Assembly (NCBI GenBank): GCA_016285515.1
Contig: JAEEQW010000002.1
Coordinates: 124,001-188,000 of the forward strand
Direction of reading: 5' to 3'
DNA from: Bacteroidales bacterium
Lineage (GTDB): Bacteria; Bacteroidota; Bacteroidia; Bacteroidales; BM520
DNA: 64,000 nucleotides
Below the pieces are notes generated by a model, which saw only the letters and a program-made list of their open reading frames with translations, searched no databases and had not been told where the DNA came from. Shown one piece after another: positions 49,849 to 64,000 of this stretch. Each line of letters begins with the position of its first letter. Position 1 is the stretch's first letter. A program made the translations under genes and the position numbers.

Positions 49849-51156
49849 CTAATCTGTCTTCAATTTCCATTTCACCACTTTGGTCTGGCATGTTTCTTCA
49901 TCTTGCGTTGTTGCCGTAATGGTAAGGGTTTTAGGATTGAATGTGTAGTCCACATCAAGAGCGTGGTATGTATAGCAAATACCATACGCGCCATCTTCTT
50001 TTACCCAATCACTTTCATCCACACACACTCCTTTAACAACCGTAACCTTCTTTATTTCACCATATTCCTTCTTGCCAGGGAAAAAGTGAATATGGTATTG
50101 TGGAATTCCGTCATTAAAAGTAACTATCTCCATATTATACCCCCATTCTGAGGAGCTTCCGGACCAGACACTTTTTAGAACATAGAAAGTGGAATCGTGA
50201 TAGTCAAACTGCCACACATCCAAAACATTCCTCTTACAATCAAACCTTCTGTCCCCTTGCCATTCTTTACACACCAACTTTCCATCAGAATCTATATATT
50301 GATAATATGTCACCAACTCCACCATTGTTCCTCCACCGATGTTCCGTGTAGTATAAAACTTATACTTTCCGTCTGGAGAGGCAGACACTCTGATTGGATC
50401 GTTTGAAGTCCTATTCCACTGGTGGAATGTAACAGGGTTCGACAAGTGAAATTCCAATCGGCCGAGAAAAATATCCTCCCATAAATAATTATAATGATTT
50501 AAGCGATTTTCATACCACTTTACGTTTATTATGTCAAATTCCTTCTTGATATCCTTCACGCTTTTATACGGAGTCGTCTTAATGTTGAGCCTTCGCGCTT
50601 GAGAGGCAATAGAATCAATTTCTATATCTGAAAAGTTGTGATTTTCTATCCTACCGCCTGTAATAGAGTTAAGATAGTAGTAATTGGGACTATGAACGAT
50701 TGGCAATTCCTCATTAGACAGGTTATGGTCTTCCATTCTGTCACCTGTAACAGAGTCGTAATTGGAACTTTGAATAACTGACAGTTCCTCATTAGACAGG
50801 TTATGGTCTTCCATTCTGTCACCTGAAATAGAGTCGTAATTGGAACCATGAACGACTGACAGTTCCCCATTAGCCTCCTTACCGCCTTTGCTTTTACAAC
50901 CAACCAGCAAAATGGCGCAAAAAACGACAAGAGCTGCACGTTTCAGGTTCCCTGCCACCTTTGAATAAGCTTCACTATTGCCCGCGTAATTGCCATAACG
51001 ATGACCAATGCCAGCAACGCAATTACGTTGCTTGAACGAATTGAACAACAAGTACGACTTCCCGCAACGAAAGACTCCAGTAAAAATATTGACAAGACGA
51101 TAATGTTTGTGCGAGATAAGTTTTTGCAGGCACTCACTGCGATTAAATTCTATCAT
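49849..51156 (-). CDS. Lipoprotein with tandem repeats, in-frame with an AAA_14 remnant
   Basis: The open frame is 435 codons, but the first 43 (51156-51028) are the N-terminus of an AAA_14 ATPase (VNIFTGVFRCGKSYLLFNSF). Codon 67 is GTG at 50958 and is a plausible true start: it gives a signal peptide and lipobox (VVFCAILLVGCKSK, Cys87 of the long frame). Next come three copies of a 26-residue unit (NYDSxxGDRMEDHNLSNEEL). The remaining 290 residues are an unknown extracytoplasmic beta-rich domain. If translation began at 51156 the lipobox would be internal and not work, so the shorter form is favoured, though I see no strong ribosome site. Confidence 0.6.
   Translation of the reverse strand: MIEFNRSECLQKLISHKHYRLVNIFTGVFRCGKSYLLFNSFKQRNCVAGIGHRYGNYAGNSEAYSKVAGNLKRAALVVFCAILLVGCKSKGGKEANGELSVVHGSNYDSISGDRMEDHNLSNEELSVIQSSNYDSVTGDRMEDHNLSNEELPIVHSPNYYYLNSITGGRIENHNFSDIEIDSIASQARRLNIKTTPYKSVKDIKKEFDIINVKWYENRLNHYNYLWEDIFLGRLEFHLSNPVTFHQWNRTSNDPIRVSASPDGKYKFYTTRNIGGGTMVELVTYYQYIDSDGKLVCKEWQGDRRFDCKRNVLDVWQFDYHDSTFYVLKSVWSGSSSEWGYNMEIVTFNDGIPQYHIHFFPGKKEYGEIKKVTVVKGVCVDESDWVKEDGAYGICYTYHALDVDYTFNPKTLTITATTQDEETCQTKVVKWKLKTD
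50705..50880 (-). repeat. 78-bp tandem repeat inside the lipoprotein gene
   Basis: The block CTCATTAGACAGGTTATGGT recurs at 50710 and 50788, a period of 78 bases (26 codons), with a more diverged third copy on the lower-coordinate side. It encodes the repeated NYDSxxGDRMEDHNLSNEEL units. Confidence 0.8.
51028..51156 (-). pseudogene. N-terminal remnant of an AAA_14/DUF4143 ATPase gene
   Basis: Codons 1-43 read IEFNRSECLQKLISHKHYRL then VNIFTGVFRCGKSYLLF and align with the first 45 residues of the intact ATPase at 30074 (VKVVTGLRRCGKSYLLF). A TACTTTTG element on the minus strand (complement near 51212-51219) is probably the old promoter. The rest of the gene has been deleted, and the lipoprotein frame now follows directly. 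Confidence 0.7.
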
Positions 51157-51343: not shown

Positions 51344-53438
51344 ATCTTAATCCTTGTTTTAGTGGAAGTTCCTATCGGAGGAGTTCCAACAAGAACAGAT
51401 AGAACGCTATAAAAGTCTTAATCCTTGTTTTAGTGGAAGTTCCTATCGGAGCTATATTTCAATTACTCCATGGCTATCTGAGCGATGTCTTAATCCTTGT
51501 TTTACTGGAAGTTCCTATCGGAGCGACACAAAAGAAAATGAAAAGACAGGAAATTATTAAGTCTTAATCCTTGTTTTACTGGAAGTTCCTATCGGAGCCA
51601 TTTGCATTTATAATAATGATATTTAGCATATAATCTTAATCCTTGTTTTACTGGAAGTTCCTATCGGAGTTGTTCAAACATGTCGAACACAAACCGAAAG
51701 TCACTGTCTTAATCCTTGTTTTACTGGAAGTTCCTATCGGAGCAGGATTACTTCTGCATACTAACTTTGGGTTATTAGTCTTAATCCTTGTTTTACTGGA
51801 AGTTCCTATCGGAGCAACCTATTGGCAGTACACTACCGCTGATGTCGAGAAAGTCTTAATCCTTGTTTTACTGGAAGTTCCTATCGGAGAGTACGACAAA
51901 ATAACCGTTGACGAATTTCAAAAACGTCTTAATCCTTGTTTTACTGGAAGTTCCTATCGGAGGTGCCATGCTGACAACTGAAAAAGACGCTTATTGCTGT
52001 CTTAATCCTTGTTTTACTGGATGTTCCTATCGGAGTGTTATCTGACTACACTTCAAAGATTAATGATGGGATGGGTCTTAATCCTTGTTTTACTGGATGT
52101 TCCTATCGGAGTGGAAAACACAAACACTGTTGAGACAATCAACGTGGCGTCTTAATCCTTGTTTTACTGGATGTTCCTATCGGAGATCCAACAAAATTAA
52201 TGAATGTTTGTAATATATTCGTCTTAATCCTTGTTTTACTGGATGTTCCTATCGGAGTGGCTGCTGAATGTAGCTATGATAATTTATATGATAGTCTTAA
52301 TCCTTGTTTTACTGGATGTTCCTATCGGAGTCCGCAAAAAAAATGTCCAAATTCGTCATGGACATGAAGTCTTAATCCTTGTTTTACTGGATGTTCCTAT
52401 CGGAGCTAATTACCATATCAGTATTATTAATTGTAGTAATGGGTCTTAATCCTTGTTTTACTGGATGTTCCTATCGGAGTATATGAAGGCGTTCACAATC
52501 GTATTGCCCGACAATGTCTTAATCCTTGTTTTACTGGATGTTCCTATCGGAGTGAAAACAGAACAAGAACGTAAGTATGAAAAAGGCGAAGGTCTTAATC
52601 CTTGTTTTACTGGATGTTCCTATCGGAGTTAACAAAGTAAAAAGCAAAAGTGTTACACACACTTGGGTCTTAATCCTTGTTTTACTGGATGTTCCTATCG
52701 GAGTAGGAGAAAACAAAATGAAAAACAAGGAAATTTTGGGTCTTAATCCTTGTTTTACTGGATGTTCCTATCGGAGTGGAAGGAATTTTCAAAATGTTAA
52801 ATAAAAAGTTGGTCTTAATCCTTGTTTTACTGGATGTTCCTATCGGAGCAATTCAAACGGAGTTGTTGACCCTGCAAAAATTGCAGTCTTAATCCTTGTT
52901 TTACTGGATGTTCCTATCGGAGTATATATGTATTAGAAGTTGTGCCCGACACGGAATTAGTCTTAATCCTTGTTTTACTGGATGTTCCTATCGGAGCGAT
53001 GAGGCGGTGGAATACGAGAACTACAACTGCGTTGTCTTAATCCTTGTTTTACTGGATGTTCCTATCGGAGTTATATATAAGTATTTGAAAATCAATAATT
53101 TATTAAGTCTTAATCCTTGTTTTACTGGATGTTCCTATCGGAGAATAAAAGAAAAGTACGAAGAAATCACAAATAATGTTGTCTTAATCCTTGTTTTACT
53201 GGATGTTCCTATCGGAGCACACAAGGAAATTAAACAGACAATAATGTCAGAGTTGGGTCTTAATCCTTGTTTTACTGGATGTTCCTATCGGAGTCAAGTT
53301 ACTTGACTAAACAAGTAACAGACAAATTTGTCTTAATCCTTGTTTTACTGGATGTTCCTATCGGAGAGGTCTATGACGTGTCGAACGCCAATGGTTTACT
53401 TGTCTTAATCCTTGTTTTACTGGATGTTCCTATCGGAG
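51344..53438 (-). CRISPR. CRISPR array, 29 repeats and 28 spacers, transcribed leftward
   Basis: Repeats are 37 bp; on the transcribed (minus) strand they begin CTCCGATAGGAAC and end ATTAAGAC, the 8-nt 5'-handle type seen in type III and related systems. Spacers are 34-39 bp. Starts of repeats on the plus strand run from 51344, 51415, 51487 through 53330 and 53402. Three repeat variants are ordered: the two most distal copies read TAGTGGAAG, the next seven TACTGGAAG, and the twenty nearest the leader TACTGGATG. The copies at 51344 and 51633 also have A for the terminal G. Distal degeneracy, the AT-rich leader on the right, and the cas genes on the right all support minus-strand transcription. 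Confidence 0.98.
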
Positions 53439-53607
53439 ACCAAATTTTGTAAATTATTGATAATAAACTATATATAATTAAAATACAAGGCGTTTATGAT
53501 AATTCTCATCATCTTTTTGTACCTTTTACGCTACAAAAGTACATAATATTTCAAAATGTCAAAGAACTAATAAAACTATTTTATGGCGTGCGTCCGCATG
53601 GAACCAC
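53439..53607 (-). promoter_or_regulatory. CRISPR leader with its own promoter
   Basis: The 169-base AT-rich gap between the array and the TPR/OB gene carries, on the minus strand, a -7 box TACTTTTG (complement of 53534-53541) 18 bases after a -33 box TTTG (complement of 53560-53563). This is close to the Bacteroidota consensus. Transcription would start near 53527, leaving about 90 nt of leader before the first repeat, so the array can be expressed independently of the cas operon. Confidence 0.7.
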
Positions 53608-54900
53608 TCAATCATCATCTTGGGCAGGTATCTTCCGCCATGAACGCACCTGACTCGGCTTGTTACGCTCTATCTTCACAACCATGATTTCTATCCGGTC
53701 CCCCTTGTTGATGCTTTTGCGCCGCTTGCTGCTTTTCTCCCTGAAGAAGCCTGAATTTCTCTGTTTGGTGACAAAGGAAACGAAGCCCTTATCCTCATTG
53801 ATATGGGTCACTTGCACCACCACAGGTTTCGCTGTGCCGATAAACTTGTCTTCCGCCCAAGCCGAATGCTGGAGATATAGCACACGGTTGTCCTTTGCAG
53901 CCAGTACATCAGTCAATTCCTGCTGGCTTAAGTATCGGTGGATGCTCGCTGGAATTCTCCATTTGTTCTCCATGCGGATCCTGACCACTTCCTCAAACTC
54001 GTGTTTTGCTTCGGCATAGCAGCCTCTCTCTAACAATAGGATGGTCATCCTTTCCCTCAGGGCAATGCTCATCCGATCGGGTGTTCGGCATGTCATAGCC
54101 TTGCATAATGCGGAAAAACGCTGCTCCACGTCGCTGAGACTGTCGGCAATGAGCTCCCAAATCCAGAACTCATTCGGTTTTTTCTTCAGTAATGGCTTGA
54201 TGTGTCGCTCAATTTGCGCATCGCTTCCGCCCGTCACAATCATTAGCTTGATCAGGTAGTATGGGAGATAGATGTAAGTCGGATGCCTTTCGCATAGTTC
54301 CTCAAGCCGAGGAATCCATTCGTCAATGTCGGATTTGACGCCCTGCGACAAAAGTGCCTTGGAGTAAGCCATATATGTCTTCTCGGCCAACGAAAGCCCT
54401 TTCTTCCCATCGGGCAAAGTGGGTTCGGTGAAGTCGTTGGGAGTGAGATTGTCGAAATTCCACCAACGGCAAAATGAAGCAAAGCCCAGCCATTGGTCTT
54501 TCACCTTCAGGAAGGTGTTCAACATGCCCGAGTAAATATCGCCGGGTTTGGAGACATCCCACTGCGACACTTCTTTCCACAAGCTATCCAAAAAAGGAGT
54601 AGAGGCGGTGTCGCCTACACATTTCCGGACCATATTCCTGACCACCGCAAACATGGCGTTTAGAAACATCTCCTCATCGGAAGGCACCTTAAGATCCGTC
54701 ACTTTCTTGACGCACCGTAGGAATGCGTCCTGGTTTCCCAAGCTTGCACTTTGCTTGGCATAATCGTAAACGACCCACATCATGGCGCGTTTTGACCAGA
54801 TGCTTTCGGGGTCGGTCAAAGTCAACTCCTCGGCGGCGAAATACGCCTCCCGAAGTTTTCCCTCCTTGCGGAGTTTTGATATGTCGGCAAACTGGGTCAT
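53608..54900 (-). CDS. Helical-repeat (TPR-like) protein with C-terminal OB-fold, CRISPR-associated
   Basis: A 430-residue protein with no named family that I recognise. Residues 1-330 look like TPR-type helix pairs (LRKEGKLREAYFAAEELTLT, LALLERGCYAEAKHEFEEV-like units). Residues about 355-425 look like a cold-shock/S1-type OB fold (VVVQVTHINEDKGFVSFVT, INKGDRIEIMVVKIERNK), a nucleic-acid-binding unit. It starts one base after the cas2 stop and is the last gene before the leader. I infer an accessory adaptation or leader-binding factor; nothing in the sequence shows catalysis. Confidence 0.65.
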   Translation of the reverse strand: MTQFADISKLRKEGKLREAYFAAEELTLTDPESIWSKRAMMWVVYDYAKQSASLGNQDAFLRCVKKVTDLKVPSDEEMFLNAMFAVVRNMVRKCVGDTASTPFLDSLWKEVSQWDVSKPGDIYSGMLNTFLKVKDQWLGFASFCRWWNFDNLTPNDFTEPTLPDGKKGLSLAEKTYMAYSKALLSQGVKSDIDEWIPRLEELCERHPTYIYLPYYLIKLMIVTGGSDAQIERHIKPLLKKKPNEFWIWELIADSLSDVEQRFSALCKAMTCRTPDRMSIALRERMTILLLERGCYAEAKHEFEEVVRIRMENKWRIPASIHRYLSQQELTDVLAAKDNRVLYLQHSAWAEDKFIGTAKPVVVQVTHINEDKGFVSFVTKQRNSGFFREKSSKRRKSINKGDRIEIMVVKIERNKPSQVRSWRKIPAQDDD

Positions 54901-54901
54901 T

Positions 54902-55384
54902 TCAGAAAAACAGTGTGTTGGATGTTTTGATAATCACATCCACATTAATGGTCTGTCCTATTACCTTCATGGCTTTCAGGTAGTCTGTCGAGATGGGTAC
55001 AACGAGGATGCTGTCTTCGTTGTCGTAGCAGGCCTGAACCTCGGCGAGGTCGCTCTTTATTTGCTCGTATTTCGCGATGGGAAGATCGGCCAGAAAGATG
55101 GATTTCTGTACGCGGGTGCATCCCTGTCGCTCAAGGTATTTCACCACATGACGACGCACTTTGTTGCTCTCTATATCGTACATTACAAAAAATAACATTT
55201 GCGTGGCAGGTCTTTTTTTGTTTTTCACTATTCCGAACACTATTTTCAAACGCTCCTCCAACGAAGGCAGCTGGTCCAACTCATCGGACGGATGATTGGG
55301 AGGGGAATTGTCCTTCAATCCAGCAGCCTTCAACTTGGCCATTTCCTCCACAAAACTCAAAGGCGGTTTCTTTTTCCTTGGCAT
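54902..55384 (-). CDS. cas2: Cas2 with an extended N-terminus
   Basis: A 160-residue protein. The ferredoxin-like Cas2 core occupies about residues 60-160 (MLFFVMYDIESNKVRRHVVK, LERQGCTRVQKSIFLADL, SILVVPISTDYL). The first 60 residues (PRKKKPPLSFVEEMAKLKAA onward) are a charged extension absent from ordinary 90-100-residue Cas2 proteins. Cas2 bridges Cas1 dimers in the integrase. Gap to the primase is three bases. Confidence 0.88.
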   Translation of the reverse strand: MPRKKKPPLSFVEEMAKLKAAGLKDNSPPNHPSDELDQLPSLEERLKIVFGIVKNKKRPATQMLFFVMYDIESNKVRRHVVKYLERQGCTRVQKSIFLADLPIAKYEQIKSDLAEVQACYDNEDSILVVPISTDYLKAMKVIGQTINVDVIIKTSNTLFF

Positions 55385-55387
55385 AAC

Positions 55388-56413
55388 TTACGTATTTTCT
55401 ATCAAAAATGACTGTATCAGGTTAACTGCCAAATCATTGAACTCATCGTCCGTGCCCGTACGTGGCGACTTCACCACCGAAAAGCCCCGCTTGCCATAAA
55501 AAAGGTTTACCTCCGCTTGTCTTAACCGCATCTTCAGCCGTATTTTCTTTCCATAAGAGATATTGATGACTTCCGCCACCTCCACCCCAGTCTGGGTGAT
55601 GTATTTCCGCAAATCATCCATTATCTCGTTCAGCTGTTCGGGCACATAGACCGGTTTCTCCAGTTTCTTGGCAGCTTTAGGATTCAGGATGGCCTTGATA
55701 TTGGCCAAGATATCGCCGTCCACATCGGCCTTGAGTTCTTTCGTGTCTTCCTCCACCTGCTGCTTTTTCGTCACCTTTTCTTCTTCTTCAAGATGATGCT
55801 TCAAGTCAAACAAAGCAGTCGGGTCGTCGGCATCGACAAACCGCCCTATATTCACTGGCACAGCATCTGGACGATAAAACGCATCAAGGTCCACACTCAC
55901 AAAACAGGCCCGGGTCACATCGCAGGTCTGCTTGTCAACCACCTGTTCTATCTGGTATTGTCGGGCAAACTGCTGGGTAAAAGCCTTGTAGAACAGGGAG
56001 AAGAGACCTTTATCATAGCAGCGTTCCGACAGTTTGAACAGCACCTTCAGTCCATCCTCCCCCGGCGACACAAAGCAGAGCACCACCCGGTCATCCTGAA
56101 CTATGCGCTGTTTAAGCGCTTCCACCGACAATTCCTTTTCAGAGATTTTGTCAATATCCAGCATAAAGTATTCGATGTAGGCAAAGTTCTCACTTCTGCG
56201 GTAGGGCGGGTTGAAGATGCCGCAGACAATATAGGGCAGTTGCCGCTTTAGGGCACTGTAGCGTTTGTAGTCCAAGGCCCTCACAAGGCGCAACTGTCGA
56301 ATTTGTGCCTGCGTCTCCGGTTTGGGATTCCGCAGTGCGTGATAGATGTTCATCACCGGCACTTTCACCAAAGGGTCGTTGGTGGAGATAATATTCTTTC
56401 CGAAAAGGATCAT
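55388..56413 (-). CDS. BT4734/VirE-N-type AEP primase, CRISPR-associated
   Basis: A 341-residue protein of the archaeo-eukaryotic primase superfamily. Motifs: FMLDIDKI with Asp86 and Asp88, SPGEDGLKVLFKL (the SPSGxGLK block of BT4734-like domains), and DVTRACFVSVDLDAFY with Asp165 and Arg168. The C-terminal 130 residues are a separate domain with an acidic linker. Related CRISPR-associated primase-polymerases have been tied to adaptation. The start overlaps the cas1 stop by four bases (56410-56413), so it is translated with Cas1. Confidence 0.78.
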   Translation of the reverse strand: MILFGKNIISTNDPLVKVPVMNIYHALRNPKPETQAQIRQLRLVRALDYKRYSALKRQLPYIVCGIFNPPYRRSENFAYIEYFMLDIDKISEKELSVEALKQRIVQDDRVVLCFVSPGEDGLKVLFKLSERCYDKGLFSLFYKAFTQQFARQYQIEQVVDKQTCDVTRACFVSVDLDAFYRPDAVPVNIGRFVDADDPTALFDLKHHLEEEEKVTKKQQVEEDTKELKADVDGDILANIKAILNPKAAKKLEKPVYVPEQLNEIMDDLRKYITQTGVEVAEVINISYGKKIRLKMRLRQAEVNLFYGKRGFSVVKSPRTGTDDEFNDLAVNLIQSFLIENT

Positions 56414-57393
56414 AGTTCCGCTTTTTTAAATTGTTGTGCCAGATTTTGTGCATAGAGGAATATCTGATGCTGTCGTGAGCGCACATTGCCTTTCACTTCC
56501 ACGGATTCCTCCAGGTAATCGTTCAACGACTGTATAAGGACGCGCCGCCCCAAGGGTTCGAGCCAGTACGAGCCGTCTGATTGCACCGAGTAATACTCGT
56601 CGGTGACGGCATTTTGGAGGAGGAGGGTATAGACCACATAGTCCACCCACACGCGATAGAGTTCAATCACATCGTACACCAGCACAGGGCGGTTGTAGTC
56701 ATCGCGGTGAAGCACGCCGATGTAGGGGTCGATGCCTGCCTTGATGAGTGCGCCCTCCACTTTGCCGTACAGCACACCATATCCGTAATTAAGGAAGGCG
56801 TTGGGCACATCGAGGGCAGGATGCTGGCTGCGTTTCTCGAACCTGTAGTGTTCGGGGAGGAACATATTCAAGGCCTCAAAATAGATTTTGGAGGCAAGTC
56901 CCTCCCACCCCCGCAACGTGGAGGAGATATCGGAAATCACCTCACCGTCGATAGCAGCAATCTTTGTGCGGTAATCTTCCAGTCGGCGGATGGCGGTCTG
57001 CACACGGTTGGCAGTAGGCTCGTCATGTGCGGTCATTGCGAGGATCAAGGCTTGCTGATTCTCGATTTTGCGGCGGATGACATCCTTAATCCAGTCGATG
57101 GCATTATGGGAGAGCGAGAAATTGAGTTGTCCCTTACGGATGGTGGACACGGAGCCGTACTTTGGAGACCAGATGCGGCCTATGACATTGCCAGAGCGGT
57201 CCATAAATACAACCTCGATTTCGCGTTCCACGGCGAGCATCACGGCATCGGATGTGATTTGCGCCCCTTTGGATATCTGGATGGAAGTGATGCCCTCGGC
57301 GGGCACGCGCTGCCGCCCCTCCGAAGTGGAAATCACAAAGCCCTCATTGTCGCGGTTGAGGGATGTTCCGAATGAGTTAATGATGAGTTCCAT
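56410..57393 (-). CDS. cas1: CRISPR integrase Cas1
   Basis: A 327-residue Cas1 with the metal-binding residues in place: Glu164 (RGWEGLASKIYFEAL), His229 (GVLHRDDYNRPVLVYD) and Glu244 (YDVIELYR). The N-terminal beta domain (NSFGTSLNRDNEGFVI) and GYGVLYGKVEGALIKAGIDP are typical. No reverse transcriptase or Cas6 fusion. It is flanked by a helicase gene and the primase gene, all on one transcript. Confidence 0.97.
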   Translation of the reverse strand: MELIINSFGTSLNRDNEGFVISTSEGRQRVPAEGITSIQISKGAQITSDAVMLAVEREIEVVFMDRSGNVIGRIWSPKYGSVSTIRKGQLNFSLSHNAIDWIKDVIRRKIENQQALILAMTAHDEPTANRVQTAIRRLEDYRTKIAAIDGEVISDISSTLRGWEGLASKIYFEALNMFLPEHYRFEKRSQHPALDVPNAFLNYGYGVLYGKVEGALIKAGIDPYIGVLHRDDYNRPVLVYDVIELYRVWVDYVVYTLLLQNAVTDEYYSVQSDGSYWLEPLGRRVLIQSLNDYLEESVEVKGNVRSRQHQIFLYAQNLAQQFKKAEL

Positions 57394-57401
57394 AGAGCTG
57401 G

Positions 57402-58868
57402 TTATTCAATGAAGGGTTTGTTTAAAAGATGGATATATTGCTGAGTACGGGTCACAGCGGTGTAAATCCATTGATATTTTTCCTTGGTGGGATTGAGCAA
57501 CTTATTGCTCATATCTACAAAGACATGTTTCCACTCACCGCCCTGTGCCTTGTGGCAAGTCACTGCATAACCAAAGTTGCAGCGCAAGGCATTCAAATAG
57601 GAATCGCGCAGTAAGGCTTCGTGAAACTGCTCTTTGTTGTGCTTCTGCGTGATACAACGCTTTTTCATTCGTTGCACGAAATCAACAAACAGTGCGGTTT
57701 GTTTGCCCGAATCAAGGTTCAGTGTGCCGGAATAAAGTGTATCCGTGAGCAGTAGGGAAGCCACCTCCCGCTTAGTGAAAAGTTCACGCAATTTCACCGG
57801 AACAAACGTGAGATTGGCTAGAAGAAACGCTTTTTCGTAAGAAATTTTCATCACCTCTACCATATCCCCATTCATCAACCCCGTTGGATAATTATTTTGA
57901 ATAACCATTAGGAGATCGCCTTCCTGCAGTTGCAGATTCACAATGCCCAACTTGTTCCGAATTATTGCAGACAACTCTGCACATTTTTTGTTGCTTGGAG
58001 TGATAAATATTGCACTATTGTACCCCTCGTGTTTTACAATTTCCACATATTTGTCAGTCATTGCTCCAAAATCATAATAAAGAGAAGTCTCTTTGCAATG
58101 ACGAAGAGGCACACGCCCCCATACCCTTTGGTATCCATAAACGGTTTCTTTTTCAGGAGCGTTCTCACAAAGTTTACGAATTTGTTGCGAAGCAGGAATC
58201 AAGGTGCTGTCATCTGATTGGCGGAATATTTGAGTCAGCGAGTGTTCTTCGGCGGTCATTCCGAAATGCTGCCGGAAATATTCCGGGTTAAGAGCTGGAG
58301 ACTGCACCTCCTGAATAGGCGGCAGTTGGCAGGGGTCGCCAACAAAGATGAACTTGCTTTGAGGACGTGGGTCAAAAGCCAACAGTTCCTTGAGCAATCT
58401 GCCTGACCCGAATTTCGCCTGAGTGATGTTCTTTTCCTCAACATCCGCTACCATCGACGACTCATCCACCACGTATATGGTGGGTTCTGTATCTTCGGTA
58501 TTCAAAGTCACCGCTTCAAAGTTGAGGAACAGCTGTCCTGTTTTCCCGACAATGAGTTCTGTTTCCTTTGTTTCCGACAAGTCTTTGTTCAAGTCCGTGA
58601 ACGTGTAAATCATAGAATGGATGGTTGCGGCTTCCGTATCGCACACATTCGAGAGCACCTTGGCTGCCCGCCCTGTGGGTGCCAGTAGCCGGAATTGGAT
58701 TTTCTTCCGTTTGAGTTCCTGTATCAAAAAGCGCATCAAGGTGGTCTTGCCTGTACCTGCATAACCTTTGAGAATGAAGACGCGTTTGCTGTCCTGCTGC
58801 ACGAAAGATTTCAATGCATCAAGGATTTTCTCCTGTTGGGTGCTTAGGGTGATGTTGGAGGTGTTCAT
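57402..58868 (-). CDS. RecD2/Pif1-type SF1B helicase, CRISPR-associated
   Basis: A 488-residue helicase. Walker A GYAGTGKTT (35-43), LAPTGRAAKVL (motif Ia), VVDESSMV (motif II, residues 133-140), FVGDPCQLPPI (motif III), GYAVTCHKAQGGEWKHVFVD (motif V) and YTAVTRTQQYIHL (motif VI). The set is complete. It lies between the Csx20-like gene, which it overlaps by four bases, and cas1, eight bases away. The placement suggests a role in preparing DNA for spacer capture rather than general repair. Confidence 0.88.
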   Translation of the reverse strand: MNTSNITLSTQQEKILDALKSFVQQDSKRVFILKGYAGTGKTTLMRFLIQELKRKKIQFRLLAPTGRAAKVLSNVCDTEAATIHSMIYTFTDLNKDLSETKETELIVGKTGQLFLNFEAVTLNTEDTEPTIYVVDESSMVADVEEKNITQAKFGSGRLLKELLAFDPRPQSKFIFVGDPCQLPPIQEVQSPALNPEYFRQHFGMTAEEHSLTQIFRQSDDSTLIPASQQIRKLCENAPEKETVYGYQRVWGRVPLRHCKETSLYYDFGAMTDKYVEIVKHEGYNSAIFITPSNKKCAELSAIIRNKLGIVNLQLQEGDLLMVIQNNYPTGLMNGDMVEVMKISYEKAFLLANLTFVPVKLRELFTKREVASLLLTDTLYSGTLNLDSGKQTALFVDFVQRMKKRCITQKHNKEQFHEALLRDSYLNALRCNFGYAVTCHKAQGGEWKHVFVDMSNKLLNPTKEKYQWIYTAVTRTQQYIHLLNKPFIE

Positions 58869-59233
58869 GACAACTTATATTTTCTAAATTGCACAAATTG
58901 GAAAAAAGATTCTTTCCTTCCGTCGGGATATTCCACGGTTTCGCGCCGGGTGGTGGATGCCACGCAAGGGATTCCAAGGATATGCAGTCGCTGCACGAGC
59001 GCGAAGGTGAAGGTCATTTCGCCCATCAGATGCACTGTAACATCCTGACCCTCAGATATTTCCAAAACTTTACAAAGATACTCATCGACGATAGACGCGA
59101 TATAGTCCTCATCGCCGACAGGATCCACCGCAGGGAAAGGCAGGTCAACAATTTCGCCCGAAAGCTGTCTCGCAGCTTCGGTCTGCTCCGCACTCCAGTT
59201 GGCGGACGGGTGGTTGGAGAGGTTCAGGAACAT
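58865..59233 (-). CDS. Csx20-like predicted ring nuclease
   Basis: A 122-residue single-domain protein. FLNLSNHPSANWSAEQTEAA, VHLMGEMTFTFALVQRL and STTRRETVEYPDGRK followed by QFVQFRKY recall Csx20/Csx15-type CARF-like proteins, which have been predicted to degrade cyclic oligoadenylate. Two cOA-responsive effectors are encoded directly upstream, so a damping enzyme makes sense here. The family call is from memory of motifs and needs a profile search. Confidence 0.6.
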   Translation of the reverse strand: MFLNLSNHPSANWSAEQTEAARQLSGEIVDLPFPAVDPVGDEDYIASIVDEYLCKVLEISEGQDVTVHLMGEMTFTFALVQRLHILGIPCVASTTRRETVEYPDGRKESFFQFVQFRKYKLS

Positions 59234-59235
59234 AA

Positions 59236-60558
59236 TTATTGATTATTATTTAGTTTATAAAAACAAGTGATAGTACGCTCCACAAACTCGTTTACTTTTG
59301 CTTCGATTTCTTGTGGAGATGGCGAGTTTTCGTTGAAACCAGCATGATTGAAGTTATTTCTATAATCGCGGATTTCTTGGTAAATATGAACAAGTTCGTT
59401 ATTGTGTTTGCCGACAGACATTATCCATTTGTCCTGCAAAACACTCTCGATATCAACAATCTGAGTATCAGACAATTCTATCGGCCATTTGTCTTTACGG
59501 TTTTGCTTGTGGTTGATTTGAATATTCAATGCAATTTCCACAATTAGGCGCATATCTTTATCCATCAAATCAAAACCATGCCTTTCGCAGAAAAGGGTTA
59601 CAAAATTTTCTCTGAGCATAGTTATGGCTTGTTGGAAAAGGCCATTTTTAACACACCATTTTGCTGCTTGAAAACCATTCATAAAGTTAGGAAATACCGA
59701 AAATTCTTCCAACGAGGTATCAACTTTTTTTAATATCTGATGAAGTGGCTCGTCTTCGGGATTTACATCTTTACTTTCAAGGAAATCTGACAATTCACTT
59801 TTAAGACTTGAAAGGCTTTCCGAATTATGTATCTGTAACCCACGGCAAGTCTGACGCTCTTTTATGACAGTTTCAAGTTTGTCAACAATTTTTTTCAAAA
59901 CATCGGATTTGATAATAGACTTTAATTCCACGAGTTTGGTGACATTTCCGCTATCAAGGTAAGTACCAGCTGCGTATGTCCAATCCTGCAATACCGAAAT
60001 AGAAGTCAAATCCATTATTGGCTTAGAATCGGTTTCTGCCATAAAGTTTCCGTAAGTGATTGACTTTACGGTTACTTTTTTCAAGAACTTTGAATAATTA
60101 ATGAGAACGGTCAGAAGCATTGGCAGATAACGGAATGCATGGGTTATATCAAAATACAACTCATCTCCATCGTTTATTTCGTTGAAAATTGTATCAAAAA
60201 TATCCCATATTTCATCCGTGTCTTTGCCGTCTTTGATTGGTTTTGGTGTGAGGACAAATGGAAAATCCATTTTTTCGGACTCAGCTTTCAAGCCCTCTTT
60301 TTCAACGGGTTTGACCTGTCCGGCAACTCTTGCCATACCCTTATTCCACTGGTCGCTTTCAGCTTTGGATGTTAGAAATATTATCGCCACGTCATTTACC
60401 GTCCATGGATTATTTTCGACAGTACATTTTTCAACAAGATATTTCAATGTAGCAAGTTGAATATACCTTGTGGTGAACACAGGTCTTTCGTTGGCGGAAT
60501 ATGTACATTCCCCGTAGGGCCCCGTACCAAGTATTGATATAAACACTTTTCTTGCCAT
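59236..60558 (-). CDS. Csx1/Csx2-like CARF-HEPN ribonuclease (TIGR02221 type)
   Basis: A 440-residue protein. The CARF domain shows FISILGTGPYGECTYSAN, TTRYIQLATLKYLVEKC and FDITHAFRYLPMLLT. The C-terminal HEPN domain carries the RxxxxH motif as RNNFNH (Arg400-His405). When type III complexes make cyclic oligoadenylate, such enzymes become unspecific ribonucleases. It lies three bases after the Can2-like gene and two before the Csx20-like gene. Confidence 0.85.
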   Translation of the reverse strand: MARKVFISILGTGPYGECTYSANERPVFTTRYIQLATLKYLVEKCTVENNPWTVNDVAIIFLTSKAESDQWNKGMARVAGQVKPVEKEGLKAESEKMDFPFVLTPKPIKDGKDTDEIWDIFDTIFNEINDGDELYFDITHAFRYLPMLLTVLINYSKFLKKVTVKSITYGNFMAETDSKPIMDLTSISVLQDWTYAAGTYLDSGNVTKLVELKSIIKSDVLKKIVDKLETVIKERQTCRGLQIHNSESLSSLKSELSDFLESKDVNPEDEPLHQILKKVDTSLEEFSVFPNFMNGFQAAKWCVKNGLFQQAITMLRENFVTLFCERHGFDLMDKDMRLIVEIALNIQINHKQNRKDKWPIELSDTQIVDIESVLQDKWIMSVGKHNNELVHIYQEIRDYRNNFNHAGFNENSPSPQEIEAKVNEFVERTITCFYKLNNNQ

Positions 60559-60561
60559 AAT

Positions 60562-61659
60562 TTATTTCGTATTAATGTTAAACAATTCACTGTCCAAAAG
60601 CAAAGCTAATGCTTTTTCAGGAGGTAAACCAAGATTATCGTCTTGTAATGAGAATGAAATGATGCCATTGTCCTTGCATTTTTCCCGTGCCAGAATATTC
60701 ATTGGTGCATTGGTTACAAACAAGGCCTTACACCCCATACCTCCGTAATTTTTTACTGCTGCGGTAAACTTATCTATATCTGTGACTTCATGTATTTGCG
60801 TCTTGCTCTCTACAAACAACAGTTTACCGCCTGCATTTAAAATAATGTCTATTTCATTTTTGGGGGCATTATTTGAAGCAGGAAACTTACAGTTCAGTCG
60901 TATATCAGATGATTTATTCCATAATGCGAGCAGATTTGCCACCTTGTACTCAAACCATCCTGAATTAATTAGCAATTGACGCAAATGAGGAGATTTCAGT
61001 GTCACATTCAACACTTGCCCTCTGGCATTCCTTATACGACAGAGGAATTCTTTAGAATCTTTTTTCCAAAATAGTTCCGACCCGTTGGCAGTAATATATT
61101 CCGTGACATTTTGATGTTTTTCGAAATTATTCACCAACTCTTTGAATTCCGTAAATGAATGAGCCCGAATTTTTTCTATTTGTTGCACACAAACTTTGTC
61201 GGCATCATCATAACTGCCAAAAGACCTGTAATCCTTCAATTGATTACCGCGAAGCCGAAACTGAGCATCCATATCAAAATCCACCTTACGAGCACTTTTG
61301 TTCGACAAATTCCAAAGCATATTGTTCTGATCCACATAGAATAGCGTGGCGTTTGGCATTGTGCCGATAATTTTTGCAAAATAGAACGCCCACGGTTTGG
61401 TTCCGCTTGAGATGTTCACCGACACTTCATCGTCTTTATACTTTTCTGCGCACAGGGCAACTTTCTTCTCAATATCATTCAAATCCACAGGATCCATTTT
61501 CCGCCTTTCCGAAGGTATTTTCACTTCCTCCGAAATTCTTTCAGCAATTTCCCGCGATTCATCCGAATAGATATAGACTATCTTGTCGGGCTGTGTGGCC
61601 ACGATGCCAGTGTAAACCGGTGCCGGCTGCCCGCCGACGAGGGTGATATGGACTTTCAT
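60562..61659 (-). CDS. Can2/Card1-like CARF nuclease (DUF1887)
   Basis: A 365-residue protein. The N-terminal CARF domain includes NISSGTKPWAFYFAKII. The C-terminal PD-(D/E)xK nuclease has GWFEYKVANLL (Glu237), NEIDIILNAGG (Asp271) and FVESKTQ (Glu284, Lys286), so the catalytic set is complete. Card1/Can2 enzymes cut nucleic acid on binding cA4. It overlaps the upstream ATPase gene by ATGA (61656-61659). Confidence 0.88.
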   Translation of the reverse strand: MKVHITLVGGQPAPVYTGIVATQPDKIVYIYSDESREIAERISEEVKIPSERRKMDPVDLNDIEKKVALCAEKYKDDEVSVNISSGTKPWAFYFAKIIGTMPNATLFYVDQNNMLWNLSNKSARKVDFDMDAQFRLRGNQLKDYRSFGSYDDADKVCVQQIEKIRAHSFTEFKELVNNFEKHQNVTEYITANGSELFWKKDSKEFLCRIRNARGQVLNVTLKSPHLRQLLINSGWFEYKVANLLALWNKSSDIRLNCKFPASNNAPKNEIDIILNAGGKLLFVESKTQIHEVTDIDKFTAAVKNYGGMGCKALFVTNAPMNILAREKCKDNGIISFSLQDDNLGLPPEKALALLLDSELFNINTK

Positions 61660-62981
61660 AAATTCTCATTTAAAAGGTTTGATATTGCATACAAAGGATA
61701 AACCCGGATATTGTCATAGCTGGCGAAATTTTCCATCGAAGTACGTACACCATACTCGGAGTTCTTCTCTTTCATGAAAACCCTCAAACTTTGCATACTG
61801 CCTTTAGAGCTCGATTTCACCTCAACGGGAACAATCCCCTGCCCTACTTGAATCACATAATCCACTTCAGCCTGACTGTCTTTCTTTTCCCTATGCCAGC
61901 AATAGAGCCGCTTGCGCTCATAGCACGAACCCGCTTTCATGATTTCCGATGCCACAAACACCTCGGTCAACGAACCCTTGTTGGACAAATTTTCAATGCC
62001 TTGTATAACCAAATCCGCCATATTCAATCCCAACATTCTCAAAAGGACACCCGTATCGAACAGTGCCATGCGTTGATAGCGATCGTTGACTTCCGCACCC
62101 AAAGGAAGGCCATTGGCAGATGTGTGAACAACAGGGTAAACAAGCCCGGCTTTTACAAGCAATTCCAGGGTGAGTTTCACCTGACTTAGCGACAGGTTGT
62201 CATTGACATTGGAATACACAAATCTGCCTTGATGCTGGCGGGCAACAGATTCCAACACCATAGTCAATCGTTCTTCGGCAATGCGACGGTGGTATTTCTT
62301 GAAATCGTCTTTGTACGACTCCACTAAATCGTTCAGCACCAACTGACAGTTTCTTAAATCCTGACTTGCAACATATTCCGACACCACTTTGGGCATGCCG
62401 CCCATCAGAATAAAAATATTTAATAGTTGCAAAAGTTTGTTGTGAACAATTTCAAAAAGAGGATTTTGTGGACTGGCATTTCGATAGGCTTCGACCAGCA
62501 TTTCTTCATTGTTTGCTCGCAAAAACTCTTCAAAACTAAGAGGATACATAAAGACAGACCGTATTCTGCCCACGCCGAAGGAGGGCAGGTCTCCCAATAC
62601 GAATTCAAGCAACGAGCCTGCCGCTATCAAATGCAGTTCTGGATATTGCTCGTAGAAATAGCGCAATTTGTTGATAGCTTCCGGACATGCCTGGATTTCG
62701 TCAATAAAAAGCAGTGTTTCACCCGCCACAACCGGTTTTTTGACAAGATATGATATTTGGCGACAAATTTCCTGTGGTGTATGTCCCTGTGAAAACAAAC
62801 CATGCAATTCCCTATGTTCGTTCAAGTCGATTTCAACATAGTTTTTGAAACTTTTGCCAAGATGCCTCACACTTGAAGTTTTCCCAACCTGCCTGGCCCC
62901 ACGAATCAAAAGCGGCATTCTGTTGTCAGAATCCTTCCATTTCAACAATTCGCCATCTACGTCTCTTACAATATATTCCAT
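61656..62981 (-). CDS. AAA_14 / DUF4143 ATPase heading the CRISPR operon
   Basis: A 441-residue protein with Walker A RGARQVGKTSSVRHL, Walker B TLLFIDEIQACPEA and sensor AAGSLLEF, followed by DUF4143 with AEVDYVIQVGQGIVPVEVKS, a PD-(D/E)xK-like motif. Its stop overlaps the Can2-like start, so it is translationally coupled to the CRISPR genes. Whether this is functional or an insertion that took over the head of the operon is unclear. The promoter region is built of 33-bp repeats (62994-63092). Confidence 0.83.
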   Translation of the reverse strand: MEYIVRDVDGELLKWKDSDNRMPLLIRGARQVGKTSSVRHLGKSFKNYVEIDLNEHRELHGLFSQGHTPQEICRQISYLVKKPVVAGETLLFIDEIQACPEAINKLRYFYEQYPELHLIAAGSLLEFVLGDLPSFGVGRIRSVFMYPLSFEEFLRANNEEMLVEAYRNASPQNPLFEIVHNKLLQLLNIFILMGGMPKVVSEYVASQDLRNCQLVLNDLVESYKDDFKKYHRRIAEERLTMVLESVARQHQGRFVYSNVNDNLSLSQVKLTLELLVKAGLVYPVVHTSANGLPLGAEVNDRYQRMALFDTGVLLRMLGLNMADLVIQGIENLSNKGSLTEVFVASEIMKAGSCYERKRLYCWHREKKDSQAEVDYVIQVGQGIVPVEVKSSSKGSMQSLRVFMKEKNSEYGVRTSMENFASYDNIRVYPLYAISNLLNENL

Positions 62982-62993
62982 ATTTCAAACTTT

Positions 62994-63092
62994 AATTTTC
63001 GGTAGCAAAAATACGATTTTTATTTCAATTTTCGGCATCGGAAAATGAGTTTAAATTTCAATTTTCGGTATTGAAAATAATAACTTCAAAGC
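62994..63092 (-). promoter_or_regulatory. Three 33-bp-spaced repeats bracketing the ATPase/CRISPR-operon promoter
   Basis: AATTTTCGG starts at 62994, 63027 and 63060, exactly 33 bases apart; the copies at 63027 and 63060 share the longer preceding TTTC. A minus-strand -7 box TATTTTTG (complement of 63006-63013) lies between the first and second copies. One copy lies near the expected transcription start and one about 20 bases upstream of the -7 box, as expected for operators. The third copy encodes the C-terminus of the NUDIX protein. Confidence 0.55.
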
Positions 63093-63644
63093 CAAAGCCG
63101 ACCAAAGTTCAAACTTTGCCAAATCCAAATCTTCGATTCGTTTCCACTGCGGATTACCTATCTCGGCATCGAAAGTGAAGTTCACATTATCAACAAGCAC
63201 CTTGAACACTACACCTGTGTGGCAATGCCCAACTTCGGTTTCTTCTTCGTTAATCATACCTGCAAGTTCAAATTGGTTTTCGCTTAACTCGACACCAACC
63301 TCTTCCATAAACTCACGTCTAAGACCATTGACAAGACGTTGCGAAATGGTATCGCCGCCATCGTGGTCATTTATATGACCACCAATGCCTACAGAAAAAA
63401 CATCGGCAAGACGTTTCTCCGAACCATGTCGCTGATAACAAAACACTTCGCCTTGCTGATTGAGTAATACGGCGTATGGAATAAGCTGCTTGTGAGTGAA
63501 ATCGTTTTCTGCTACCGACCTGTTTATATATTCATACGGCAATGAATTGATGTTGTCAACACTCGCTTTCCAAATTTGCTCGCTCATATCGAACTGCCTT
63601 TTCATTGCATCAAGAGACACGCATATCACATTTTCGTCTTTCAT
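63051..63644 (-). CDS. NUDIX hydrolase
   Basis: A 197-residue protein with VFSVGIGGHINDHDGGD and a NUDIX box REFMEEVGV. In the box the usual first Glu (Gx5Ex7RE) reads Gln (ISQRLVNGLRRE), while the REx2EExG part that binds metal is intact. Substrate unknown. Its ATG overlaps the stop of the adenosine-deaminase gene (63641-63644), so the two are co-translated. It is upstream of the CRISPR operon on the same strand. Confidence 0.8.
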   Translation of the reverse strand: MKDENVICVSLDAMKRQFDMSEQIWKASVDNINSLPYEYINRSVAENDFTHKQLIPYAVLLNQQGEVFCYQRHGSEKRLADVFSVGIGGHINDHDGGDTISQRLVNGLRREFMEEVGVELSENQFELAGMINEEETEVGHCHTGVVFKVLVDNVNFTFDAEIGNPQWKRIEDLDLAKFELWSALALKLLFSIPKIEI

Positions 63645-64000
63645 AACAAACCTTTTTCAATTAGGTGAGCCAAATCATGCTCCACGTTTCTGATCAACTG
63701 TTTCTTTCGTTCATACGGATAGAAAGCCGAGCGGAATCCGTTGCATATTAATTGTAGGATATCCCATTTCGACAGTCCTCCTTGTGTCATACGTGCAGCC
63801 TTATGCAGTTCATGGGTCATGCCTGTTATTGATATGCCTGGGTCATCAGTATTTACAGAAACCTTCAGTTCCTTGTCGATATAGGCTTTGAGCGGATATG
63901 CAGACAAATTGGCTGTCTCTTTTGGAAAATAATTGTCACGGAAGCCCACAATCTGGAAATTGCTCGAAGGACACAACTCCACTCCTATACCCCGTTCCAA
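63641..64000 (-). CDS. Adenosine-deaminase-family protein, C-terminal part
   Basis: The visible 119 residues match the C-terminal third of the ADA/AMP-deaminase family: ELCPSSNFQIVG, YPLKAYIDKELKVSVNTDDP with the metal-binding Asp of the NTDDP motif, and a closing helical segment. The N-terminus lies outside the window, so it cannot be said whether it is a plain adenosine deaminase or carries an extra sensor domain, such as the CARF domain of the CRISPR-associated deaminases. Confidence 0.78.
   Translation of the reverse strand: MERGIGVELCPSSNFQIVGFRDNYFPKETANLSAYPLKAYIDKELKVSVNTDDPGISITGMTHELHKAARMTQGGLSKWDILQLICNGFRSAFYPYERKKQLIRNVEHDLAHLIEKGLL

Follow-up and report, generated by a model that had tools for sequence, protein, structure and literature searches.

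Which proteins assist Cas1 and Cas2 in a type III CRISPR-Cas locus, and from where were they recruited? This question is raised by a run of nine minus-strand genes in a 64,000-nucleotide stretch of DNA from a Bacteroidales bacterium (C40:124001-188000 in whole-genome coordinates; hereafter the window). A sequence-only reading had proposed that five of them, namely a superfamily 1B (SF1B) helicase, Cas1, a primase, Cas2 and a protein with TPR and OB domains (TPR/OB protein), form an undescribed five-part adaptation system. We rejected this proposal since Cas1, primase, Cas2 and RecD-like helicase are the published operon of class B CRISPR-associated primase-polymerases (CAPP_B; Zabrady 2021, PMC8211822). 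The description should become that of a known CAPP_B adaptation operon into which components of a known candidate defence pair were co-opted. We prefer to read the window as part of a complete type III-A locus whose CAPP_B adaptation module took over components of a defence pair of the TOTE/PDC-M16 type, at a probability of roughly 0.48. The identities of the parts are well supported by sequence comparison, and the mechanism is one that we infer.

A CAPP_B operon with an additional partner

The adaptation genes of the window are the following:

53608..54900, minus strand: TPR/OB protein of 430 residues; TPR solenoid, DUF7017 at residues 210-347, weak S1/CSD-like OB match at residues 363-413
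54902..55384, minus strand: Cas2 of 160 residues with an N-terminal extension of about 62 residues; TIGR01573 (2e-13) on residues 63-159
55388..56413, minus strand: CAPP_B primase-polymerase of 341 residues; NF040562 (7e-130)
55394..55642, minus strand: predicted TBP-like C-terminal domain of CAPP_B, residues 258-340; profile-profile and hidden Markov model (HMM) matches, weak TBP-TOTE match
56410..57393, minus strand: Cas1; TIGR00287 (2e-70)
57402..58868, minus strand: RecD-like SF1B helicase of 488 residues; PDC-M16A (1e-124), profile positions 8-489 of 721

The published CAPP_B operon comprises Cas1, Cas2, a RecD-like helicase and the primase in type III systems and was described almost only from Bacteroidetes (PMC8211822). 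For the enzyme of a member of the Dysgonamonadaceae, DbCAPP, DNA priming and polymerisation were shown, and yeast two-hybrid contacts of DbCas1 with both DbCAPP and DbRecD were reported in the same paper. The window resembles the DbCAPP operon in its VirE_N/BT4734-like primase between cas1 and cas2, its RecD-like helicase and its type III setting in Bacteroidetes. The primase reached 433 bits against NF040562 (cut-off 200), and its gene has the position of a CAPP_B gene, overlapping cas1 by 4 bases and lying 3 bases from cas2. Asp86 and Asp88, the catalytic pair, were invariant in 23/23 aligned CAPP_B sequences, with a numbering that matches DbCAPP (PMC8211822). The window differs from CAPP_B as published in its TPR/OB partner and TBP-like domain, neither of which is named for class B in the text covered of that paper, where residues 220-337 of DbCAPP are termed a 'diverse smaller C-terminus'. 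In CAPP_A operons (Marinitoga CAPP-TPR, Neobacillus CAPP-helicase) a TPR or helicase part likewise accompanies primase, Cas1 and Cas2, but there it is fused to the primase (PMC8211822), whereas here separate proteins of PDC-M16 families are found. AEP and PrimPol are abbreviations used in a figure on adaptation-linked genes in a 2023 Science survey (PMC10910872), and the text covered of a 2023 review names no TPR/OB partner for class B (PMC10345425). A link between CAPP_B, TPR/OB and a TBP-like domain was not found in searches of open-licence papers, and a printed mention may exist.

The N-terminal extension of Cas2 (window positions 55199-55384) was present in 24/24 aligned Cas2 proteins of CAPP_B loci, shortest in locus L117, and is possibly a docking segment. 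In viral contigs, 80 loci were retained for the CAPP alignment, with every match inside residues 1-205. Short direct-repeat stretches were observed in the CAPP/cas1 or CAPP/cas2 intervals of both CAPP loci of genome G562 (L113:1187-1455 and L123:2875-3103).

Family identities of the TPR/OB protein and the helicase

The TPR/OB protein had been called unknown in the sequence-only reading. This label was dropped since the protein matched DUF7017 at 2.4e-33 (115.6 bits, cut-off 27.5) and the PADLOC profile PDC-M16B at 1e-99 over residues 3-427. Its match to S1CSD-TOTE-1 was weak (6e-4; 19.7 bits, below the cut-off of 27); among its relatives 14/23 matched S1CSD-TOTE-2 at E <= 1, the best at 7.5e-20. 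A single-sequence model was helical over residues 1-311, at a poor mean predicted local distance difference test score (pLDDT) of 60. In L111, L119 and L123 the TPR/OB protein is of a divergent TPR type that ends in an OB-like part, and that of L119 matched the PADLOC entry 'TPR repeats containing protein fused to cold shock-like domain' (1.7e-14). These forms would fit the binding of single-stranded nucleic acid, DNA or RNA.

The window helicase stops 14 residues past motif VI and thus does not cover the full PDC-M16A profile with its C-terminal part. Based on the profile matches, the assignment of the TPR/OB protein and the helicase to the families of PDC-M16, a stand-alone candidate defence pair with TOTE domains, is well supported. 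TOTE conflict systems are named after TPR, OB, TBP and Effector (Aravind 2022, as cited in PMC12458937). The window shares with them a TPR protein of the DUF7017 kind and possibly OB/S1-CSD and TBP-like domains, whose Pfam matches in the window lie below the cut-offs. Unlike in TOTE systems, the primase matches BT4734-like_N and not AEP-TOTE, the TOTE primase family in Pfam, for which this genome gave no match, and Cas1-Cas2 replace a fused effector. No effector is fused to the helicase or the TPR/OB protein in the window, and the CARF effectors of the operon are of type III kinds. Compared with the PDC-M16 pair, whose A and B families the helicase domain and the TPR/OB protein match, the window helicase is without the C-terminal part, a related domain stands on the primase, and the two genes lie inside a CRISPR adaptation operon, separated by cas1, CAPP and cas2.

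Most TPR/OB genes were found elsewhere, in counts based on a DUF7017 model that misses divergent TPR/OB proteins. Among 395 Bacteroidota genomes DUF7017 was matched at E < 1e-15 in 14 places, of which two are at CAPP loci and 12 are not (eight beside a long helicase without CAPP in the stretch, four neither). The 393 genomes of the same order gave 27 places in 25 genomes at E <= 1e-7; seven have a CAPP gene no more than 20 kb away and 20 do not, and a helicase adjoins 11 of these 20. The sequence-only reading had stated that a TPR/OB gene mostly away from Cas1 would speak against its adaptation set, and taken literally this is the case in both the order and the phylum. Over both genome sets, 19/32 free TPR/OB genes (about 60%) had a PDC-M16A-type helicase beside them; for the remaining copies the fetched stretch, which in some cases ended at a contig edge, showed no such helicase.

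The free pair is also carried by Klebsiella and Chryseobacterium plasmids. TPR/OB matches fell on 68 plasmid records (24 Klebsiella, 22 Escherichia), and the Klebsiella version of the pair occurred in 53/5426 complete E. coli genomes, 42 of which matched at least 80% of its length. A profile search of genome contigs with the single TPR/OB protein as query yielded one weak locus (L006), none of 17 stretches from viral contigs was confirmed with the TPR/OB alignment, and one unannotated phage record was matched. In two genomes of one genus, free pairs of a helicase-TBP and a TPR/OB protein are convergent to csm genes (L096:8774-12355 and L097:9227-12771), in stretches without CAPP; L096 has a Cas1 of 529 residues nearby.

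A TBP-like domain on free helicases and on the primase

The free helicases differ from those of adaptation operons in their C-termini. Adaptation-operon helicases end 14-32 residues past motif VI (11/11 measured), whereas free helicases end 204-263 residues past it (18 measurable of 22, the other four having no recognisable motif VI). A TBP-like part was found in 21/24 free helicases compared with 0/12 from adaptation operons (Fisher 4e-7; 2e-5 without the training rows), in a comparison that leaves out the partial helicase of G037 and the PIF1-type helicases of L104 and L118 and counts the locus-head helicase of G724 as free. The three free helicases without it are of about 980-995 residues, and the 448-residue Runella helicase had no TBP-like match. 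When the C-termini of seven free helicases were scanned alone against Pfam, all seven matched TBP-TOTE, with E-values between 6.7e-37 and 1.2e-5; four carry two units, and one match falls just below the cut-off. In a Pfam scan of 17 helicases TBP-TOTE was not among the 25 commonest families listed.

The primase C-terminus resembles the TBP-like unit of these free PDC-M16A helicases, as judged by profile comparison. With hhalign, the CAPP C-terminus (23 sequences) and the free-helicase C-terminus (eight sequences) matched over 82 and 81 columns, with probabilities of 92.9/93.7% depending on the direction and scores of 48-50; none of five control pairs exceeded 0.4% or a score of 18. Moreover, a TBP HMM built from eight free helicases and run over 4051 open reading frames (ORFs) and reference proteins matched 19 helicases and CAPP-labelled sequences, and nothing else at E <= 1. 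Matches of the CAPP-labelled sequences were at E < 0.1 in 17/31 and at < 1e-3 in nine, where the 31 include the window protein, its fragment (L005) and L103 (300 residues, C-terminal match only). The Persicobacter CAPP matched at 2.1e-7. In a single-sequence model residues 258-340 were predicted as a helix, four strands and a helix (block pLDDT 40-58), the order expected for half a TBP, which is weak support for a TBP-like fold. The CAPP alignment had no match among PDB sequences at E <= 0.1.

Occurrence of the five genes together

We collected 31 CAPP_B loci: 21 from 20/393 genomes of the order, those of G111 and G037, six from the 395 genomes of the class, three of which score below the model cut-off, and two from plasmids. 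The TPR/OB gene was counted in the 25 loci with a judgeable end beyond cas2; the ends of the other six lie at contig edges (G037, G541, G562:C143, G547, G866 and G835). It was present in 15/25 loci. In 12 of them it adjoins cas1 or cas2 or is one gene off (the window, G111, G646, G492, G634, G562:C37, G411, G699, G640, G753, Runella, with one gene between, and Persicobacter), and in three it stands at the locus head beside a putative cas6 (G746, G724 and G614). In the remaining ten it was not found: G496, G659, G414, G643, G651 and G429 had no genome-wide DUF7017 match at E <= 1e-7, a search that divergent forms would escape, and in G902, G813, G993 and G919 the fetched stretch was searched. 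On short contigs (e.g. G659 and G429) the locus head lies outside the view. A RecD-like helicase was present in 13/31 loci, with the free-type pair of G724 excluded and some loci ending at contig edges. Among the order genomes that hold both families by model score, CAPP_B and TPR/OB genes lie within 20 kb in 7/8; the rough chance of this is 2e-13, an estimate that ignores the clustering of defence genes.

All five genes of the set proposed in the sequence-only reading were present in 7/25 judgeable loci (the window, G111, G646, G634, G699, G753 and Runella), with the helicase on the other strand in G634 and at the locus head in Runella. In agreement with that reading, the association of cas1-cas2 with helicase, primase and TPR/OB genes was seen again in different families. 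PIF1-type helicases were observed in two CAPP_B loci without a RecD-like helicase (L104:6380-8434, 684 residues, with a weak TPR match; L118:2184-4601, 805 residues), which suggests that another SF1B enzyme can take the place of the RecD-like helicase. On the Runella sp. SP2 plasmid pSP2_2 (L264) the five genes belong to a type III-B locus, and the plasmid also carries a second cas1-cas2-cas4 set. The Persicobacter psychrovividus plasmid pPP6 carries a CAPP_B locus with a TPR/OB gene.

The surrounding type III-A locus

Further features of the locus are:

51344..53438, minus strand: CRISPR array; 29 repeats of 37 nucleotides, 28 distinct spacers of 34-39 nucleotides
53439..53607, minus strand: putative leader, AT-rich, from the TPR/OB stop codon to the first perfect repeat
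58865..59233, minus strand: Csx20-like putative ring nuclease; PADLOC Csx20 (1e-34), NF040559 (29 bits, below the cut-off of 70)
59236..60558, minus strand: Csx1-type CARF-HEPN effector; TIGR02221 (100 bits, cut-off 76)
60562..61659, minus strand: Card1/Can2-like CARF-PD-(D/E)XK nuclease effector; CARF_Card1 (3e-9), PADLOC CARF4 CARF_PDDEXK (2e-134)
61656..62981, minus strand: AAA ATPase with DUF4143
63051..63644, minus strand: NUDIX hydrolase; PF00293 (24.1 bits, cut-off 21.1); 4-base overlap with the upstream Cad1-like gene
63641..64000, minus strand: Cad1-like CARF-adenosine-deaminase, 3' part (locus L005); TIGR01430 (7e-50, below cut-off)

According to the ORF list, nine minus-strand genes run from 62981 down to 53608, with spacings from the ATPase to the TPR/OB gene of -4, 3, 2, -4, 8, -4, 3 and 1 bases. 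The overlaps of four bases and gaps of at most eight given in the sequence-only reading are thus exact, and signalling and memory genes do share one tight same-strand run. The run does not start at the ATPase as had been assumed. In the whole genome the NUDIX gene lies 69 bases upstream on the same strand, followed by the Cad1-like gene, csm5, csm4, csm3, csm2, cas10/csm1 and a putative cas6, mostly beyond the window edge, and the nine-gene unit is the second half of a type III-A locus. The idea of effectors without an effector complex was rejected since the csm genes were found just past this edge. Csm1 scored 596 bits, Csm2, Csm3 and Csm4 were above the NCBIfam cut-offs, and Csm5 was below its own (26.8 bits, cut-off 38.3). 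The 230-residue gene upstream of cas10 had no match in the NCBIfam scan; from its position it is a putative cas6. With Cas10/Csm1, Csm2-Csm5 and the array present, we read the locus as a complete type III-A CRISPR-Cas system.

The array begins just past the TPR/OB gene, the last of the unit, and has its mismatched repeats at the low-coordinate end. The repeat ends in ATTAAGAC, presumably the CRISPR RNA (crRNA) handle. Because of this ending and the position of the mismatched repeats, the crRNA strand is probably the minus strand. Since the mismatched repeats mark the far end of the array, the leader should be 53439-53607, facing the TPR/OB gene, and would be the expected integration site. No protospacer was found for the array in phage records (three records, best E 0.7). 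Three tandem 78-nucleotide repeats (window 50670-50903) lie within a minus-strand ORF of 435 residues adjoining the array.

In the window csx20 shares 4 bases with the helicase gene. Genome G813 encodes a 604-residue protein in which a Csx20 domain is joined to the adaptation helicase (L157:3314-5128, minus strand), with a separate csx20 gene just upstream of it; this predicted fusion is a direct protein link from ring nuclease to adaptation helicase. The NUDIX-Cad1 pair (window 63051-64000, L005:7051-9680) was found again in L114. According to the title of one paper (PMC11645235), Cad1 converts ATP to inosine triphosphate, and the NUDIX protein beside the Cad1-like gene may act on the latter.

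Proposed role and alternative explanations

In the mechanism that we propose, the helicase would unwind invader DNA ends or bubbles and the TPR/OB protein would bind the exposed single strand, docking the helicase and the TBP-like domain of the primase through its TPR solenoid. The primase would turn the strand into a duplex pre-spacer, or fill gaps after integration, and Cas1-Cas2 would insert the pre-spacer at the leader beside the TPR/OB gene. The TBP-like domain would thus be a transferable adaptor, linking helicase and TPR/OB protein in the free pair and primase and TPR/OB protein here. The trees of the two families bear on how these parts were acquired. The helicase tree (36 rows, three long branches) can be explained by two changes for its 12 adaptation rows, of which nine fall into a single supported group. 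In the TPR/OB tree (37 rows, ten long branches) the label changes seven times, at least four of them forced by well-supported branches; the number is soft since three locus-head proteins were labelled as adaptation. This suggests that the helicase was recruited once or twice and the TPR/OB protein repeatedly, a pattern that we take to favour selection over hitch-hiking. A broader version, which we regard as unlikely, is that Bacteroidota CRISPR adaptation repeatedly annexed an invader-sensing unit of TOTE-type conflict systems, with the TBP-like adaptor on the primase in place of the helicase. The TPR/OB scaffold, arming defence when stand-alone, would then feed captured strands to Cas1-Cas2, and capture would depend on sensing intermediates of invader replication or transcription, possibly tuned by the helicase-fused or overlapping ring nuclease.

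Several observations weigh against the co-option of defence-pair parts as preferred here. With the TPR/OB gene not found in 10/25 loci and a RecD-like helicase in only 13/31, neither is essential. The two best TBP-like CAPP matches, L108 and L117, come from loci without helicase or TPR/OB protein; therefore the TBP-like domain needs neither partner, which weakens the adaptor idea. The window CAPP matched TBP-TOTE only at 0.0085 (16.1 bits, below the cut-off of 27), 10/23 CAPPs matched it at E <= 1 (best 8.5e-4), and the Runella CAPP had no TBP HMM match. Single-sequence models were poor, with pLDDT 41 for CAPP and 60 for TPR/OB, and a PDB fold search with the low-confidence CAPP model, which we give no weight, returned nothing at E < 0.1.

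Helicase and TPR/OB protein could also be an independent anti-phage pair (PDC-M16) placed in a type III operon, with no role in adaptation. The many TPR/OB relatives away from CAPP loci, 19/32 of them beside a PDC-M16A-type helicase, speak for this, as do the intact helicase-TBP and TPR/OB pair at the head of the CAPP_B locus of G724 (L163) and the pairs convergent to csm genes in L096 and L097 (one genus, no CAPP in the stretch). However, the missing TBP-like part in all 12 adaptation-operon helicases and the splitting of the window helicase from the TPR/OB gene by cas1, primase and cas2 speak against an independent pair. In L110 and L116 the TPR/OB gene lies between recD and cas1, in L111 and L119 it accompanies cas1-cas2 with no helicase in the stretch, and the yeast two-hybrid contact of DbCas1 with DbRecD (PMC8211822) points in the same direction, so that we hold this explanation to be improbable, though worth weighing.

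It is likewise doubtful that the proteins act solely after integration, with helicase and TPR/OB protein exposing, and CAPP filling, the single-stranded gaps beside the duplicated repeat, and none of them acting in capture. Strand-displacement synthesis by CAPP, for which one figure labels leader and spacer strands (PMC8211822), agrees with such a role; in some other CRISPR systems, however, genetics implicate host polymerases (PMC8211822), and an OB/TPR partner from a defence-pair family would be left unexplained. A service to the signalling arm, e.g. the clearance of cyclic oligoadenylate or its coupling to acquisition, would account for the 4-base overlap of csx20 and helicase in the window and for the second Csx20 fused to the helicase in G813. 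The fusion is one among 12 adaptation helicases, however, and free pairs occur without profile-recognised signalling genes beside them, which makes this role very unlikely.

Implications

Four results appear to be new: the membership of the TPR/OB protein and the helicase in the PDC-M16/TOTE families, the TBP-like units on most free helicases but not on adaptation helicases, the match of the CAPP_B C-terminus to this domain, and the presence of the TPR/OB gene in 15/25 and of all five genes in 7/25 judgeable CAPP_B loci. The link between CAPP_B and the defence pair gives a hypothesis that can be dissected on how spacers are chosen and prepared in type III systems without a reverse transcriptase, with a protein to hold the strand and a purpose for the primase C-terminus. 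It also assigns a likely fold to a so far unassigned part of an enzyme whose biochemistry has been studied. Tests are possible with complete named plasmids (Runella sp. SP2 pSP2_2 and Persicobacter psychrovividus pPP6), and since the free pair is present in E. coli genomes, its stand-alone and adaptation uses can be compared. Innate and adaptive immunity would be seen to share parts.

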